Of a stretch of 55,179 nucleotides of DNA, positions 12,787 to 43,660 are shown piece by piece (within the stretch, counting starts at the first letter, position 1; each line of letters begins with the position of its first letter). The DNA comes from Chloroflexota bacterium. Its GTDB lineage: Bacteria > Chloroflexota > Dehalococcoidia > UBA2247 > RBG-13-53-26. A program made the translations under genes and the position numbers. The DNA is taken from the NCBI GenBank assembly GCA_016875915.1, contig VGOM01000012.1:1-55179 (forward strand), in the 5' to 3' direction. The notes below the pieces were generated by a model. The model ran no database searches. It saw only the letters and a list, made by a program, of their open reading frames with translations, and was not told where the DNA came from.

Positions 12787-13068
12787 TCAGTTGTTTCCTG
12801 GGGATGCAGCCGGCGACTGCCTCAGCCAGACGCTCCGCAGCATCTCGAATTCCCGGATGAGCGCTGCCATCTCCGTCGGGCTGAGGTCGGCGCGGGCGAT
12901 CTTGCACTGGTTGTCCCACCACTCACGGCATTCGGTGCGCACCGCGCAACAGCCGCCGTAGCTGCTGTTTGCCAGACAGCACGCGTCCAGATGGGTACCC
13001 AGTCTCTTGAAAGTGGCCCCAATCATGGATTCGTAGTGGAAGTTCCTTCGTAGGTATACCCTTTTCAT
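12787..13068 (-). CDS. Small Cys-rich hypothetical protein behind riboswitch A
   Basis: A 93-residue protein with six cysteines (residues 30, 31, 40, 41, 47 and 55) arranged as CC-x8-CC-x5-C-x7-C in the first half, and a helical C-terminal part. No signal peptide or membrane segment is visible. ATG 13068 was chosen because GGAG lies about six bases upstream and the longer reading frame would run back through the riboswitch terminator. I do not recognise the family; the paired cysteines suggest metal or Fe-S binding or disulfides. The gene lies 53 bases after a c-di-GMP-II-type aptamer and terminator, so its expression is probably set by c-di-GMP. Confidence 0.65.
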   Translation of the reverse strand: MKRVYLRRNFHYESMIGATFKRLGTHLDACCLANSSYGGCCAVRTECREWWDNQCKIARADLSPTEMAALIREFEMLRSVWLRQSPAASPGNN

Positions 13069-13120: not shown

Positions 13121-13155
13121 GGAAAAAGAAGAACCGGCCTATGGCGGGCCGGTTT
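13121..13155 (-). terminator. Terminator of riboswitch A
   Basis: On the minus strand AACCGGCC pairs with GGCCGGTT across a seven-base loop and is followed by CTTCTTTTTCC. The 5' arm contains the AACC that forms the last part of the aptamer pseudoknot, so aptamer and terminator are mutually exclusive. Confidence 0.8.
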
Positions 13156-13212
13156 CACTGCTAGCTCCTCACTGCCCAAGTGACCACATACGGGCAGTGC
13201 CTCATTGCTGCC
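13146..13212 (-). promoter_or_regulatory. Cyclic di-GMP-II (GEMM-II) type riboswitch A
   Basis: Minus-strand leader of the Cys-rich gene. In order it has TGAG, a stem (GCACTGCCC with GGGCAGTG) whose loop ends in TGGTCACTT, then GGAGCTAGCAGTGAAACC. The order and spacing match the c-di-GMP-II aptamer, whose Clostridium form has GGGCACUU in the loop and GAGUUAGUAGUGCAACC after the stem. Loop GGUCACU pairs with AGUG-A-(AA)-CC as a pseudoknot that keeps the two bulged adenines known to contact the ligand in that class. The G-C pair of the Clostridium form is replaced by U-A. The terminator arm overlaps the pseudoknot strand, so ligand binding should switch transcription on. Confidence 0.75.
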
Positions 13213-13367
13213 GCACTAAGGCTTGACTGCTGATGATGATCTTGTTCTGTACACCCCCGCATCTTCTTAGTCGCACCAGACGACATCCGTCCCTCAGCCC
13301 GGGATTCCGGTACCACCGGTCGGGCTATGGCCATGGCTGTGGGACACACAGCGGCCAGGCGGGAAAG

Positions 13368-37125: not shown

Positions 37126-38556
37126 TCAACGGCGGCCGCCGGACCGGGACGAAATCGCTTCTCTGGGGCGCTGTCTCATCCTGTTGAGATTGCCCTTGCC
37201 GACCCCCCTGAATACGAAGCCATGATCGACGAATGCCCTGGCGTCGAACATATTCCTCCCGTCAACCACCACCCTGGAGTTCAGCAGCCCTGACAGCCTC
37301 TCCGGCGTAATGGACCGGTACTGCTCGTGCTTGGTCATCAGGACCACGGCATCGCACTGCCTCAGGGCCCGGTCGAGATCACCTTCGATGGCATACCCCT
37401 CTCCATCCATGATGTGGGGGTCGTGAATGACGTATGTCGCTCCGCGGCGGGCCAACTCCTCCACCATCGGCACCGTCGGTGTGTTTCTGGCGTCGTCGGA
37501 GTTCTCCAGGAAGGCGTATCCCAGCACTGCGATGCGCGATCCCCGGATGCCCCTCCCGGCTTCCTTGAGTCCGTCCTCCAGAAGGTCGACCATATGAACG
37601 GGCATCCAGTCGTTCAGATGCCGGGCCCCGGCAAGTACCGATGGCGGGTACTGCTGCTTGGATCTGCCATATCTGTCGTACCCATGCATCAGGAGCCAGG
37701 TGTCCTTGGGCAGGCAATGTCCGCCTACTCCGGCTCCCGGGAGATGCATGTTGCGAACCGGGTTGGCGTGGGGCGCTGATGCGTCGTTGGGAAGCCCGTT
37801 GACCAGTTCCCTCACCTCGTGGACATCCGTGCCCATGGACTCGCAGAGCAGGGCCACCTCGTTGGCAAACGCGATCTGCACATCCCTGTAGGCGTTCTCC
37901 ACGGTCTTGGCCACCTCGGCCGTGAGGATGTCGGTCCCGCAGACCGGCGCTCTCACAATGGAGCGGTAGAGCTCCACGGCCATGTGCCGGCTGGCCTCAT
38001 CCATGGCGCCGACGATCTTGGGGTACTCCCTGACATTGTGAATCAGCCTGCCGACCATCACCCTCTCGTAGGAGAAGCACAGACCGAATCCCTGCGGCAG
38101 GCCGGCTGGCAGACCGGACACCTCCTCCAGGATCGGCTTGACCACATGCTCTGTGGTGCCCGGAGCCACGGTCGATTCAACTATGATGAGCATGCCGGCT
38201 CTCAGGTGTTTGCCTACCTGTCGGGAGGCTTCCTCTAGGGATTGGTACATCGGGGTGTGGCTCTCATCGGTGGGTGTCTGAACATCGATGAGAACGACAT
38301 CCACGTCTCCTAGGACGGAGTAGTCGTCGGTTGCTCTGAACTTGCCCGCGCGGACCACCCGCTGCAATATCTCCGGGAGCTCAGGTTCATTGCCGCCTAT
38401 GGGGCATCTCCCCTGATTCAGCCAGTCGATCTTCCATCCTGATCTGGTCGAGCGGCGCTGTATGCCGACCACGTCGTGTCCGGCGTCCGCCAGAAGAGCT
38501 GCGGCGGGAATGCCCACATAGCCCATGCCGATGACGGCGACTCTTCTCTTGTTCAT
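37126..38556 (-). CDS. Nucleotide-sugar 6-dehydrogenase (WbpA/WecC-like)
   Basis: A 476-residue UDP-sugar dehydrogenase. The N-terminal NAD motif is [12 protein letters not shown], the catalytic cysteine lies in [14 protein letters not shown] (about residue 280), and the C-terminal UDP-binding domain contains [17 protein letters not shown]. It oxidises a UDP-hexosamine at C6 to the uronate with two NAD. Together with neighbours it fits UDP-GlcNAc 6-dehydrogenase WbpA. The ATG overlaps the stop of the fusion gene as ATGA. It is longer than usual by a basic C-terminal tail of about 25 residues. Confidence 0.92.
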
Positions 38557-40382
38557 GATCCCGACCTCGCCGGCTTCTCGCTGCCCTGTCTGACTGATTC
38601 CCGGGCTGACCTAGGGGCAGCCTTGCCCCGGATTCTCTGGGCGGGGTTCCCCACTACGACTGCCCCGGTGGGGACGTCTTTGGTCACCACCGCGCCGGAG
38701 CCGACGATGGCCTTCTCCCCGATGGTGATGCCGGGAAGTATGGTGGAGTTGGCCCCGATCCGGGCTCCTCTCTTGATGGTGGCTCCCGCGAGCTTGGCCC
38801 CGTATTCCATGTACTTGTCATTGGTGGTTACCGAGCAGGGGCCGAGGAACACCCCGTCCTCGACCACCGTGTAGGCCGTGAGATAGACATTGGTCTGCAT
38901 GGCCACTTGATTCCCCACCCGGCAGTGCCCATCGACGACGGTGTTGGTGCCCACCAGGACATCGTCACCCATCTCGGTGCCCTCACGGATGAGGACGTTG
39001 TGACCCGTCTTGAACCCCTTGCCGATCGACACGTCGGAGTAGATGACGGTCCCGGACCTGATGCGGGAGTTGGGTCCAATGGACAGCACCCCATCGTCGC
39101 GATGGCCCAGGACCACGTTCTCCTCGACCACCGTTCCTTCGCCGACATGCACTCGTCCCCGCACCAGTGTGCTCTGGGGTAGCCGGGCGACCACTGTCCC
39201 TGAGTGGTGATCGCCGGCACAGGCGGCCTCTGAGGACTGCGGTGGATGCGCGGTCTCTGCTGCGCAGGCACATGACTGGTGGCAGTGGCGGCCATTGCGA
39301 GCCTCCCTGATACTGTTGACGATGTAGTTGAGATCCTGATCACTCAGTCCGGGATGCACCGGCAGGGAGAGGGTCTCTCTGGCCACCTGCTCTGAAACGG
39401 GGAATGAGCCGTCGTAGCCCAGCCTCTGGTACAGGGGCTGCTTGTGAATGGGTATGGGATAGTGCACCCCGGTCATGATCCCTCGCTCCTTGAGAGCGGC
39501 GGCCAGTTCATCCCGGGACATGCCGAAGCGGCCGGTCACCCGGACGGTAAACTGGTGGAAGACGTGCTTGCGGTCCGGGCCGACGATAGGAATAGCCAGG
39601 CCTTCGATTCCGGCCAGCTGGCCAGCGAGGAAGGCGGCGTTCCTTGTGCGCCTGTCATTGAACTCATCCAGCTTCCGCATCTGACAGATGCCGCATGCCG
39701 CAGCGATGTCCGTCATCCTGTAGTTGAACCCCAGGATCTGATGTAGGTACTTCTCGCTCTGTCCATGACTCCGCAGTAGCCTGCCCTGCTGGGCGATATC
39801 GGCGTTGTCGGTGGTGATCATTCCTCCCTCGCCGGTGGTGATGTTCTTGGTGGCGTAGAAGGAGAAGCAGCCGATGCCGAATGATCCCACCTTCCGGCCC
39901 CGGTACTCAGCCCCGTGGGCCTGGCAGGCGTCTTCGACCAGGGTCAGATTGTGCTCCCCGCAAATGCGGGTGATCTGGTCCATATCACACGGCTGACCGT
40001 AGAGGTGAACGATGATCACGGCTTTGGTGCGCGGGTTCACCGCCTGCCTGAGAAGGCGGGGACTGATGTTGAAGGTCTCCTTGTCGATGTCGACGAACAC
40101 CGGCCGGGCATTGCAGAAGAGGATGGCGTTGGCGGTAGAGACAAAGGAAAAGGGGGTAGTGACTACCTCGTCGCCCTCGCCCACCCCCGCTGCCAGCAGG
40201 GCCAGGTGGAGGGCTGCTGTTCCGGTGTTCAGGGCCACGGCGTGCCTGATGCCGACGTAGTCGGCGAAGAGCTGTTCGAACCGGGCAACCTCCGAACCCT
40301 GGACCAGCATGCCCGACTTGAGGACATCGGTCACGGCCTGAATCTCGTCACTGCCCAGTGACGGTTCAGAGATCGTCAGCAT
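38553..40382 (-). CDS. Fused DegT/DnrJ aminotransferase and hexapeptide N-acetyltransferase (WbpE-WbpD-like)
   Basis: A 609-residue bifunctional protein. Residues about 1-365 are a PLP sugar aminotransferase of the DegT/DnrJ/EryC1 family, with [13 protein letters not shown] and the PLP lysine at about 179 ([13 protein letters not shown]). Residues about 400-590 form a left-handed beta-helix of hexapeptide repeats ([42 protein letters not shown]), ending [11 protein letters not shown], as in WbpD acetyltransferases. The linker contains an unusual cluster of Cys and His (HCHQSCAC, then several more). WbpE installs the 3-amino group and WbpD acetylates it, so fusion would channel the intermediate. 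ATG 40382 has a G-run eight bases upstream and heads the whole minus-strand operon. Confidence 0.9.
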
Positions 40383-40759
40383 GTCATGAACCCCCCCGGT
40401 TCCCATCTACTGCTTGGACCACCTATCCATCATCTTCGTTATTGTCAAGTTCCACTCGCTTTCTGGTTAGGTACGTAAACGACCATGCTAGCACGCCCGA
40501 ATGGGTATGTCAACAACATTCCAGATCATTGCTGACAGGATCATAGCGCATATGCCAAGAGGCATCAATGGCAGAGGATCTTCCACAGCTGCGCTGTGTT
40601 GACGCGGAATGCCGGGCATCGGCATGCCAGGACTCTGGCGATCGAACCCGTTCGAAGCTGATGTTATCTCCCGGCGTCTGTAGGTCATCTGTCGTTCCTC
40701 AAGTAGTTCGCTTCGCGGAAGGGTGGACATCTTGCCCGCCCTTCCGGCCAGCCCATCTC
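40383..40759. other. Intergenic region upstream of the glycan operon
   Basis: A 377-base gap. It contains the minus-strand promoter at 40485-40513 and, nearer 40720-40740, a weak hairpin (GGAAGGG with CCCTTCC on the minus strand) that may end the large secreted-protein gene. I see no gene in the rest. Confidence 0.5.
40485..40513 (-). promoter_or_regulatory. Promoter of the glycan operon
   Basis: On the minus strand TTGACA (40513-40508), a 17-base spacer and TAGCAT (40490-40485) lie about 100 bases ahead of ATG 40382. A second TTGACA at 40448-40443 lacks a good -10. Confidence 0.65.
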
Positions 40760-43300
40760 CTATTGCTGCGGCTGCTTGGGCATTCCCTTGATCAACCAGA
40801 AGCCTATGCCCCCGATGGCCGCCGCGGCTCCCAGTCCAATGACTATCCAGACCCAGGTGGGCATGCCGCCGTCTTCCGACGGCTCGACAGGGGTCTCCTC
40901 CTCAGCGACGAGGATGCCGTTGCTGCTGCCCACGGCGCTCCACAGCCCCTCACCATTCTTGGCCTTGACCGAGAAGTAGTAGGTGCTGCCCACGCTGAGG
41001 TTGAGGCCGGTCCTGGTCAGGCTGGTCCCGGTGCCTGCCGATGTCCAGTTCACCAGATCGGTGTCCCCGGCTGAGGTGCCTATGGCGTACTGGTACTCGG
41101 CAACACCCGACTCAGCATCGGACGAAGTCCAGGTGGCATGAAGCTGGGTCAGGTTGGTGGTGGACTCCCCGCCGTCGCTGACCACCGGCGTGGTCGGTGG
41201 AGTGGTGTCGGGCACGGGAGCCGCTACAGTGGCGAAGGTGAGGTCTGCTGAGACGGCCTCGTTGTTGGAGGCATCCTTCGACTTCACCCTGTAGTGGTAG
41301 GTGGTGCCGGCCGTCAACCCGGTCAGGCTGACGCTGTGGCTAGTAGCCAGGGTGGCATCCAGGGTGGTGGCCGAGCCGTATTGGCTGGTCAGGCCATACT
41401 CCACCTGACTGGTGGCCGCCTCGTTGGTGGTCCAGGTGATGGTGGCCCCGGTCTGGGTCATCCCGCTCGCGGTTACAGCGGAGATGGCCGGCGGGGTGAC
41501 GTCCAGGGTGGTGAAAGTGTACACGTTTGACAGGGTCCACAAACCAGAGCCCTGGGTATCCCTTGATTTCACCATGTAGTGGTAGGTGGTGCCGGAGGCA
41601 AGCCCGGTCAGAACCATCGTGTGGCTGGTCACCAGGGTGGCATCCTCATCTGTGGTTGTCCCCAGGCTTGCGGTCAGTCCATACTCCATCTGGCTGGTGG
41701 CCAGTTCGTCGGTGGTCCAGGTGATGTTGGCGCCTGTAGCGGTGATGTCGGTAGCTGCCACGTCGGAGATCACTGGCTTGGTGGTATGTGGCGTGGTGAA
41801 GTTGAAGTCGGCCGAGTGGGACTCGCGCCCCAGACCGTCCTTGGATTTCACCCTGTAGTGGTAGGTGGTCGCCCGTGTGAGCCCGGTGAGATTCACGGTG
41901 TGGCTAGTCACCAAGTCTGTGTCCAGTGTGGTGGACGAGCCGTACTGAACCGTGATCCCATACTCCACCTGGCTGGTTCCGGGTTGATCGGTGGTCCAGG
42001 TGATGGTGGCGGTGTTCTCGCCTATGTCGCTAGCGTTCACAAAGGAGAATACCAGCGTCTGCGCACTCAGGGTGAAGTTCTTGCCGGTGATCTCGTCGGG
42101 TCCTGCTACGAGCACCGGTTGAGCCAGAGCAATGTCGGTGACATTATCGTAGTACTTGCTGAAGTAGCCGTCGGCCTCTGCCTGGAGGATATAGCTGCCC
42201 AAGTCGATGTTGTTACCCAGCACGTAGCTGCCATCCGCACGAGACCAGGCCTCATCCATCAGCTCAGAGGTGACGTTGTCAAAGGCCATGATCCGGGCGC
42301 CATAGATGGGGGCGGTTCCACCCTCCTCCAAGACGGAGCCCTTTATGGAAGCACCGGCCGCAAGGACGAAGTCGATGCCCGTGATCTTACTGGTGCCTGT
42401 GATCGTGACCGGGTCGGCGGAATCGGAGAAGAACCCGTCCGCGTCGACGCTGACCTTGTAGCCGCCGGGTAGGATGTTGTTGCCCACGGTGTAGCTGCCG
42501 TTGTCGCTGGTCCAGGCATCGTCCACCATCTGATCTGCGCTGTCGTAGGCCATGACATGCGCGCCGTAGATCGGGGTCCCATTGTCCGTATGGACCGTGC
42601 CCGATATGGAGCCGCCCTCGGCCAGGGTGAAGTTGACGCCCGGGGTATCGGTGGATAGAGTCACCGTGACCGGGGTGGCCGAGGTGGAGTCTGTAGCGTT
42701 GTCGTAGTACTCGCTCAAGTACCCATCGGCTTCGGCCTTCACCTTGTAGCTTCCGGGATCCATATTGTTGCCCACAGTGTAGGTGCCGTTCTCACTGGTC
42801 CAGGCATCATCCACCATCTGATCCGCGCTGTCATAGGCGATGACGCGGGCACCAATAATGGGCGTTGTCCCATCTGCCTGGTGGACGGAGCCTGACAGCG
42901 AGCCGCCCTCCCCAAGAGCGAAGTCAATGCCGCTGGTAGTATTGGGGTCGTCGACAGAAACCTCTTGAGCTGAGCCAGGGGTGGTGTCACCGTTGTAGTA
43001 CTGGCTGAAGTATCTGTCAGCCTCTGCCTTCAGCCGGTAGGTGCCGTCGGCTAGTCCCGATATGGTGTAGCTGCCGTTCTCGTCGGTGAAGCCGGTGCCG
43101 GCGGGGATCACCTGCCCCAGTCCGAGATCGGCGTCCCAGTCGTAGGCGTAGACCGTGGTACTCGGAATGGGCGTGGTCGTGCCTTCCACGTACACATGCC
43201 CCGTGATCTTGCCGTCGGCCGCCATGGCCACGCCCGCCATGCTCAAGACAGAACCCAGCGCAAGGACAACCACAACGACGATACTCACGATCCTACGCAC
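40760..43300 (-). CDS. Large secreted repeat protein with regulatory-like and fibronectin type III domains and C-terminal anchor
   Basis: An 846-residue surface protein. Residues 1-28 are a signal peptide (IVVVVVLALGSVLSM). Four carboxypeptidase-regulatory-like (CarboxypepD_reg) repeats occupy about 30-430, each with SG.V...GT.PI.GA.V.AYD and G.YTVGN.(M/I).PG.Y.V.A.ADGY. Four fibronectin type III-like modules follow (about 435-790) with ITWTT(D/N)..ATSQVEYG and TYHY.VKSKD. The C-terminus has a transmembrane helix (MPTWVWIVIGLGAAAAIGGIGFWLI) and a short tail. No enzymatic domain is visible; adhesion or matrix function is likely. The start is GTG 43300 with GAAGGAGGAG six bases upstream. The leader carries a c-di-GMP-II-type riboswitch and terminator. 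Confidence 0.92.
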   Translation of the reverse strand: MRRIVSIVVVVVLALGSVLSMAGVAMAADGKITGHVYVEGTTTPIPSTTVYAYDWDADLGLGQVIPAGTGFTDENGSYTISGLADGTYRLKAEADRYFSQYYNGDTTPGSAQEVSVDDPNTTSGIDFALGEGGSLSGSVHQADGTTPIIGARVIAYDSADQMVDDAWTSENGTYTVGNNMDPGSYKVKAEADGYLSEYYDNATDSTSATPVTVTLSTDTPGVNFTLAEGGSISGTVHTDNGTPIYGAHVMAYDSADQMVDDAWTSDNGSYTVGNNILPGGYKVSVDADGFFSDSADPVTITGTSKITGIDFVLAAGASIKGSVLEEGGTAPIYGARIMAFDNVTSELMDEAWSRADGSYVLGNNIDLGSYILQAEADGYFSKYYDNVTDIALAQPVLVAGPDEITGKNFTLSAQTLVFSFVNASDIGENTATITWTTDQPGTSQVEYGITVQYGSSTTLDTDLVTSHTVNLTGLTRATTYHYRVKSKDGLGRESHSADFNFTTPHTTKPVISDVAATDITATGANITWTTDELATSQMEYGLTASLGTTTDEDATLVTSHTMVLTGLASGTTYHYMVKSRDTQGSGLWTLSNVYTFTTLDVTPPAISAVTASGMTQTGATITWTTNEAATSQVEYGLTSQYGSATTLDATLATSHSVSLTGLTAGTTYHYRVKSKDASNNEAVSADLTFATVAAPVPDTTPPTTPVVSDGGESTTNLTQLHATWTSSDAESGVAEYQYAIGTSAGDTDLVNWTSAGTGTSLTRTGLNLSVGSTYYFSVKAKNGEGLWSAVGSSNGILVAEEETPVEPSEDGGMPTWVWIVIGLGAAAAIGGIGFWLIKGMPKQPQQ

Positions 43301-43416
43301 GCTTCTCCTCCTTCATATGCACCCATCCGGATGGAATGGCCGCGACCCTGGCTGAAGACACCCTGAGGGAAACGTTGGGAAGCCGGGCTGCGTTTCGTCT
43401 GATCAACATACCTCTG

Positions 43417-43448
43417 AAAAAAGAGAGACCGACCCCTTCGGATCGGTT
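43417..43448 (-). terminator. Terminator of riboswitch B
   Basis: On the minus strand ACCGATCC pairs with GGGTCGGT around GAAG and is followed by CTCTCTTTTTT. Its 5' arm includes the ACC of the aptamer pseudoknot, the same arrangement as in riboswitch A. Confidence 0.85.
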
Positions 43449-43512
43449 TCACTATTGGCTCCCCGCCGTCAAAGTGACCAAATCGAGACGGCGGCTCAAC
43501 GCCCTCCTCGGG
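43443..43512 (-). promoter_or_regulatory. Cyclic di-GMP-II (GEMM-II) type riboswitch B
   Basis: Minus-strand leader of the secreted repeat protein. TTGAG is followed by a stem (GCCGCCGTC with GACGGCGG) whose loop ends ATTTGGTCACTT, then GGAGCCAATAGTGAAACC. This matches the c-di-GMP-II aptamer core in order, spacing and conserved bases, including the two adenines of the pseudoknot bulge. It shares GGTCACTT, GGAGC and AGTGAAACC exactly with riboswitch A, although the stems differ completely in sequence but not in pairing. Overlap of the terminator arm with the pseudoknot strand predicts that ligand binding turns transcription on. The gene begins about 115 bases after the terminator. Confidence 0.8.
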
Positions 43513-43660
43513 ACTACGATGCTGTCGGGCAGATCTGAGAAAGCTACCGGTCCATCATCTCCTTCAAAACGTTTAGTCGCCAGCGTTGAGCGGAATCCCT
43601 CACTCTGTCGGGCCAAAAGACCACAGACCTGGCACTCCGCCTCCGCTGCGCAGAGCCGGT

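Follow-up and report, generated by a model that had tools for sequence, protein, structure and literature searches.

The window, a stretch of 55,179 nucleotides from a Chloroflexota bacterium (contig VGOM01000012.1), carries on its minus strand a leader that is probably a c-di-GMP-II transcriptional ON switch placed behind a dedicated ECF-sigma promoter. The arrangement comprises the aptamer, an overlap between terminator and pseudoknot, a motif at fixed spacing that is enriched upstream of aptamers, and the linkage and co-occurrence of that motif with one ECF sigma. The coordinates are collected in Table 1.

The riboswitch class, proposed in the preliminary description together with a covariance-model search as its check, is secure: the cmscan match covers the full length of the model (RF01786), with a score above the gathering score of 53.5 bits. 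The core landmarks named there, GTTGAGCC, a loop ATTTGGTCACTTT and then GGGGAGCCAATAGTGAAACC, are all seen, and the segment given (43417–43512) spans aptamer and terminator. That reading is supported, yet incomplete, with a second aptamer in the window, ten further copies in the genome, and the upstream promoter motif common to them overlooked, and with them a proposed regulon that has a promoter class and a sigma factor to itself. In the window leader, the terminator is part of the minimum-energy fold. The folding energy of this leader is ordinary (z -0.32), so that the case rests on conservation and covariation and not on stability.

The gene behind the leader has a GTG start with GGAGGAG upstream. 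Its 846-aa product has a signal-type N-terminus, four CarboxypepD_reg and three fn3-like domains and a C-terminal hydrophobic segment, in agreement with the adhesin-like target suggested earlier and with the adhesins driven by class II riboswitches in C. difficile. The second window aptamer is laid out like the first, before a gene for a 93-aa Cys-rich protein with no Pfam or NCBIfam match and with a poor AlphaFold model (mean pLDDT 48). In relatives, orthologues of this small protein stand behind the same promoter, with the riboswitch recognisable in some and not in others. Two such loci (L114 in G170:C95 and L118 in G203:C109) have motif promoters before leaders that resemble decayed or altered c-di-GMP-II RNAs: the loop GGTCACTT is lost, and the terminator ACCGACC..GGTCGGT is retained in L118 and present in a variant form in L114.

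Table 1. Coordinates of the features of the window, and of tandem aptamers in other genomes
Feature	Coordinates	Strand	Remarks
c-di-GMP-II aptamer, full length (RF01786)	43432..43515	-	window leader; cmscan, model 1–84, 64.5 bits, E = 3.5e-12
Intrinsic terminator hairpin ACCGATCC-GAAG-GGGTCGGT	43428..43447	-	overlaps aptamer
U-rich terminator tail CTCTCTTTTTTCAG	43414..43427	-
CGACTAA, proposed -10 of ECF-sigma promoter	43573..43579	-	window leader
GAGGGATT, proposed -35	43594..43601	-	window leader; 14 nt before CGACTAA
Gene for 846-aa secreted, C-terminally anchored protein	40760..43300	-
Second c-di-GMP-II aptamer	13138..13221	-	cmscan, 58.2 bits, E = 2.2e-10
Terminator hairpin ACCGGCCCGCCATAGGCCGGT, then TCTTCTTTTT	13133..13153	-	second leader
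CGACTAA, -10 element	13267..13273	-	second leader
GAGGGACG, -35 element	13288..13295	-	second leader; 14-nt spacing
Gene for 93-aa Cys-rich protein	12787..13068	-	behind second riboswitch
Surface-glycan cluster	40406-25933	-
sigma70-type promoter TTGACA-17-TAGCAT	40513-40485		ahead of glycan cluster
23S rRNA, 3′ end	55179-54760	-	at contig edge
tRNA-Met(CAT)	54733-54659	-
tRNA-Lys(CTT)	50980-50905	-
Tandem aptamers	G015:C141:722/891; G042:C106:12354/12754; G055:C40:9908/10094
Tandem aptamers	G189:C1:780098/780355; G083:C1:1724857/1725114; G211:C1:128455/128716

The promoter motif upstream of the aptamers

The 2.16-Mb genome (93% complete) has 12 c-di-GMP-II aptamers, 11 of them above the cut-off. 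When their leaders are compared side by side, GCGACTAA is found upstream of most aptamers. The genome has 18 copies of the motif CGACTAA, ten of which precede one of the 12 aptamers by 0–57 nt, in the sense orientation, against a Poisson expectation of 0.0055 for the 12 leaders, which overstates independence because the leaders are related by descent (maybe as duplicated cassettes). The two leaders without the motif (L006 and L012) have canonical sigma70-type promoters.

Across six genomes of the family, CGACTAA is present in 43 of 56 aptamer leaders (in the five relatives, 7/8, 4/6, 7/10, 9/11, and 6/9); these are draft MAG assemblies, of which two reach 63–68% completeness. A second box, with the consensus GAGGGATT, stands 14 nt before CGACTAA, with GG at two positions in 40–41 of the 43 sites. 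This -35-like box played no part in the choice of sites; the conservation of the -10 is circular, the sites having been picked by exact match to CGACTAA. In ten of the 43 motif leaders, that of the sigma operon itself among them, the -35 at the fixed spacing is weak. The combination RGG-N17-CGACTAA occurs at nine places in the window's own genome, eight of which are riboswitch leaders. Judged by eye, five of the 13 aptamers without the exact CGACTAA have near matches (one changed base) with the same spacing, and about five of these 13 leaders have sigma70-like promoters. CGACTAA is absent from all 20 aptamer leaders taken from other families of the class, and half of those 20 have a sigma70-like promoter (TTGAC...TAnnnT).

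Four of the loci have CGACTAA immediately next to the aptamer, a position that suits a -10 box with transcription beginning at P1 and speaks against a transcribed RNA element. Elsewhere the spacer is mostly 37–50 nt, as would be predicted by cassette copying if there were no special promoter layer and GAGGG..CGACTAA were just a passenger of a duplicated leader, with no separate function; a terminator sequence common to the leaders points the same way. This is improbable, however, since the distance between motif and aptamer varies (from abutting to 55–100 nt at some loci) with that between -35 and -10 mostly fixed, since the presence of the motif is tracked by that of the sigma factor described below, and since the motif also precedes genes that have no riboswitch. 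In the relatives, 19 such motif loci are without any Rfam match (two of them look like decayed c-di-GMP-II leaders), so that the sigma regulon would be wider than the riboswitch regulon. In the window's own genome, a single exact bipartite promoter lacks a riboswitch (L054); it precedes a gene for an 842-aa signal-peptide protein.

Among the motif promoters of the relatives, those of L113, L119, and L123 precede a conserved stretch with GGTGGC[TA]ACCAGTGAGGCC at its end, which G170, G203, and G192 have in common and which would be a small RNA or a small protein. At L126 (G192:C463), divergent from a riboswitch leader, the motif promoter is followed by three consecutive signal-peptide-like Cys ORFs (54, 41, and 35 aa).

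The ECF sigma factor linked to the motif

Five sigma70-type genes are present in the window's genome (G000). The gene for the ECF sigma (G000:C18, at 24056; 199 aa) stands third in an operon behind the L011 aptamer and its motif, after genes for a PAS-PAS-HD-GYP phosphodiesterase (481 aa; HD_5 in Pfam, E 5e-38) and an OmpR-type regulator (334 aa). A reading of the first gene as a histidine kinase was rejected on its Pfam domains, PAS and HD_5, which are those of an HD-GYP-type phosphodiesterase. The sigma has regions 2 and 4 only, with Sigma70_r2 (PF04542), Sigma70_r4_2 (PF08281), and TIGR02937 above cut-off. Its orthologues, with 47–60% identity depending on the alignment, are found in exactly the five motif-bearing relatives; the four motif-less members of the family have no orthologue, only paralogues with at most about 35% identity. 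When genome contigs are scanned with the sigma alignment, only distant relatives appear (the best, at 44%, in Anaerolineae MAGs), without the bipartite motif.

All six genomes show physical linkage of the sigma gene to the motif. In G159, the same riboswitch-led operon occurs, regulator gene included. In G170, G192, and G203, a motif promoter GAGGGATAg..CGACTAA follows within tens of bases after the sigma gene, and in G181 a variant with one mismatch, GAGTGATA-N14-CGACTAT, is at the same place. The gene behind the sigma-adjacent promoter in G170, G192, and G203 encodes a likely candidate for an anti-sigma factor, which has its N-terminus in the cytoplasm, crosses the membrane once, and carries fn3/PKD domains on the outside; in G000 the candidate gene is not adjacent to the sigma gene.

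The position of the regulator gene between the phosphodiesterase and sigma genes in G000 and G159 would suit a motif that is the site of some other regulator, for example this OmpR-type response regulator. We consider that unlikely, because no relative of the regulator is found within the flanks of about 0.4–1.5 kb of the sigma gene in G170, G181, G192, and G203, which leaves the sigma as the common partner of the motif. In addition, OmpR-type sites are direct repeats, whereas the two boxes here are dissimilar and their start-to-start distance of 22 nt is that between -35 and -10 boxes. The motif is apparently recognised by the ECF sigma.

Aptamer conservation and direction of the switch

In the class to which the window belongs, 74 of 393 genomes have a match to RF01786. 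The class includes closed genomes of 1.4–2.1 Mb, each with 18–50 reductive dehalogenase matches, and, judged by this content, it is Dehalococcoidia, with Dehalococcoides/Dehalogenimonas-type members, in line with the Chloroflexota context first proposed. A search of two genomes from the window's own family found no reductive dehalogenases. In several other Dehalococcoidia families, c-di-GMP-II aptamers occur in tandem, about 170–400 nt apart (Table 1). A search of viral contigs with the aptamer DNA pattern gave no matches.

For covariation, the family supplied 32 distinct ungapped 84-nt aptamers and the other families of the class 11. In P2 and P3, pairing survives changes on both sides of the helix, with 28–31 of the 32 sequences paired per position (for example, 27–48 as GC, AT, or GT, 26–49 as TA or CG, and 24–51 as GC or AT). 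In the pseudoknot between loop GGnCAC and GUGnAACC, five of the six pairs (42–64, 41–65, 40–66, 38–70, and 37–71) are intact throughout the 32 family aptamers and the sixth in 31. P1 is down to about three pairs adjacent to the core, and the remainder of the P1 of the Rfam model overlaps the terminator.

In the structure 3Q3Z, the ligand contacts are A13, A14, U37, G39, U60, A61, and C68 to A74 (PMC7288161). With these positions mapped onto the Rfam model by a constant offset of one, U37, G39, A61, A69, A70, C71, C72, and G73 are nearly always conserved. A13 and A14 are mostly G. At the position equivalent to C68, A stands in 31 of 32 family aptamers and 11 of 11 from other families. That a strongly conserved contact residue is replaced in nearly all Dehalococcoidia copies could be taken to mean that another cyclic dinucleotide is the ligand, but this is distinctly improbable: the contacts from U37 to G73 just listed are kept in nearly all copies, and the A is usually paired with U, the pseudoknot partner having changed from G to U in most. 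The genome's GGDEF protein, moreover, has an intact GGDEF motif and, judged by the signature residue, presumably shows no sign of a hybrid cGAMP enzyme. The A at the C68 equivalent would then be a lineage variant within aptamers that bind c-di-GMP, an altered ligand being possible but unlikely. In one aptamer of the window's genome (L003, G000:C11:6787-6870:-), with GUGAACCC, the A that matches A70 is C, and the terminator arm is changed in step (CCCGACC/GGTCGGG).

The 5′ arm of the window terminator, ACCGATCC, includes the ACC of the pseudoknot and the 3′ strand of P1, and CTCTCTTTTTT comes directly after the hairpin. Terminator-like sites number two in the 1-kb region of the window leader, against 0.6 in shuffles. 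Of the 56 leaders from the six genomes, 54 have three or more of the four AACC nucleotides paired in the terminator, and 55 have six or more T in the 12 nt after the hairpin; for the best hairpin that begins at the pseudoknot AACC, the energy averages -13.8 kcal/mol over the 56 leaders. This upholds the coupling of aptamer and terminator advanced in the preliminary description. Since the terminator takes the pseudoknot strand and P1, the ligand-bound pseudoknot and the terminator are mutually exclusive, and read-through with ligand, that is, transcription ON when c-di-GMP is bound, is predicted. The same direction, also foreseen earlier, is supported by C. difficile, in which all four class II riboswitches are ON and three of them drive known or putative adhesins (PMC6200980). 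An OFF switch, with the terminator promoted by ligand binding as in the class I c-di-GMP riboswitches of C. difficile, is very improbable, because the terminator uses up the pseudoknot strand and P1 so that the two cannot form jointly, and because class II is uniformly ON in that organism.

Targets, messenger side, and the proposed two-input control

Among the targets behind riboswitch and promoter in the window's own genome are the 846-aa surface protein, a 1222-aa metallophosphoesterase with fn3/cadherin-like domains, a 1117-aa PKD/Ig protein, a DUF6166 protein, a small DnaJ-like zinc protein, the 93-aa Cys-rich protein, and the phosphodiesterase–sigma operon. In relatives, the targets include glycosyltransferases, a DegT aminotransferase related to that of the window at 38553-40406, SPase II, RCC1-repeat surface proteins, and a CarboxypepD_reg/fn3 homologue of the 846-aa protein. 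At L001 (G000:C15:25276-25359:-), motif, riboswitch, and terminator are present with no sense gene behind them, the next gene being convergent; this RNA may be stand-alone or antisense.

The window also has a surface-glycan cluster, with a DegT aminotransferase–hexapeptide acyltransferase fusion, a UDP-sugar dehydrogenase, an oxidoreductase, glycosyltransferases, and a FemAB-like protein. That the riboswitch also drives this cluster is made less likely by the good sigma70-type promoter in between.

On the messenger side, the genome has one GGDEF gene (GAF-GAF-GGDEF-HD-GYP), beside a prepilin peptidase gene. No PilZ was found in ten genomes of the family, and a control search finds PilZ in 5 of 14 control genomes; thus, with PilZ as the receptor domain searched for, the riboswitches are the main c-di-GMP effectors found.

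ECF sigma/anti-sigma systems likewise have sigmas with regions 2 and 4 only, and in G170, G192, and G203 there is a gene for a candidate membrane partner. The usual ECF -35 box contains AAC; the window's genome differs by its proposed -35 GAGGG and by a proposed regulon combined with riboswitches. The class II riboswitches of C. difficile (before CD2831, CD3246, the pilA1 operon, and cmrRST) fit the same RF01786 model with a terminator platform, and the predicted ON direction and adhesin-type targets recur in the window's genome. C. difficile 630 has four class II riboswitches and 37 DGC/PDE proteins, whereas the window's genome has 12 aptamers with one GGDEF gene in 2.16 Mb, A in place of C68, and a common ECF-type promoter upstream. 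A riboswitch-controlled sigma operon is also known at flgB of C. difficile, where a c-di-GMP riboswitch controls the operon encoding the alternative sigma SigD (PMC11477304); that one is a class I OFF switch acting via the sigma only, whereas here the putative sigma targets each have a class II riboswitch. In the attack phase of Bdellovibrio, an alternative sigma with an expanded regulon (FliA) and a c-di-GMP riboswitch RNA are likewise expressed in one organism (PMC3627812), but the FliA motif is TTAAG-N16-CCGATA and the riboswitch exists as one abundant RNA instead of heading every target. A search of the open-licence literature yielded no account of a sigma regulon in which a single riboswitch class gates each transcript, and on c-di-GMP in Dehalococcoidia almost nothing, with one passing mention.

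In the mechanism that we propose, the ECF sigma would initiate at GAGGGATT-N14-CGACTAA and RNA polymerase would make the aptamer first. Without c-di-GMP, AACCGATCC would join the terminator and transcription would stop; with c-di-GMP, the pseudoknot GGUCAC/GUG-A-AACC and P1 would retain AACCGATCC, allowing read-through into the surface-protein gene. With the same cassette of promoter and riboswitch at the head of about ten transcription units, both sigma and c-di-GMP would be required. The phosphodiesterase–regulator–sigma unit would provide positive feedback via the sigma and negative feedback via c-di-GMP hydrolysis.

Taken by itself, the riboswitch adds a further member to a known class, in a phylum that is less familiar. 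The regulon would be an AND-gate design across unrelated genes, conserved between two genera and with feedback on both inputs, and it yields a candidate promoter/sigma pair and many natural predicted ON switches with A at position 68. On balance, it seems that in this lineage of Dehalococcoidia, in which no PilZ was found, most of the response to c-di-GMP would be a two-lock regulon, in which the sigma opens the promoter and the riboswitch opens the transcript, with the sigma gene itself inside the regulon together with a phosphodiesterase. From this follows a testable model for c-di-GMP signalling among the Dehalococcoidia, an environmentally important group.
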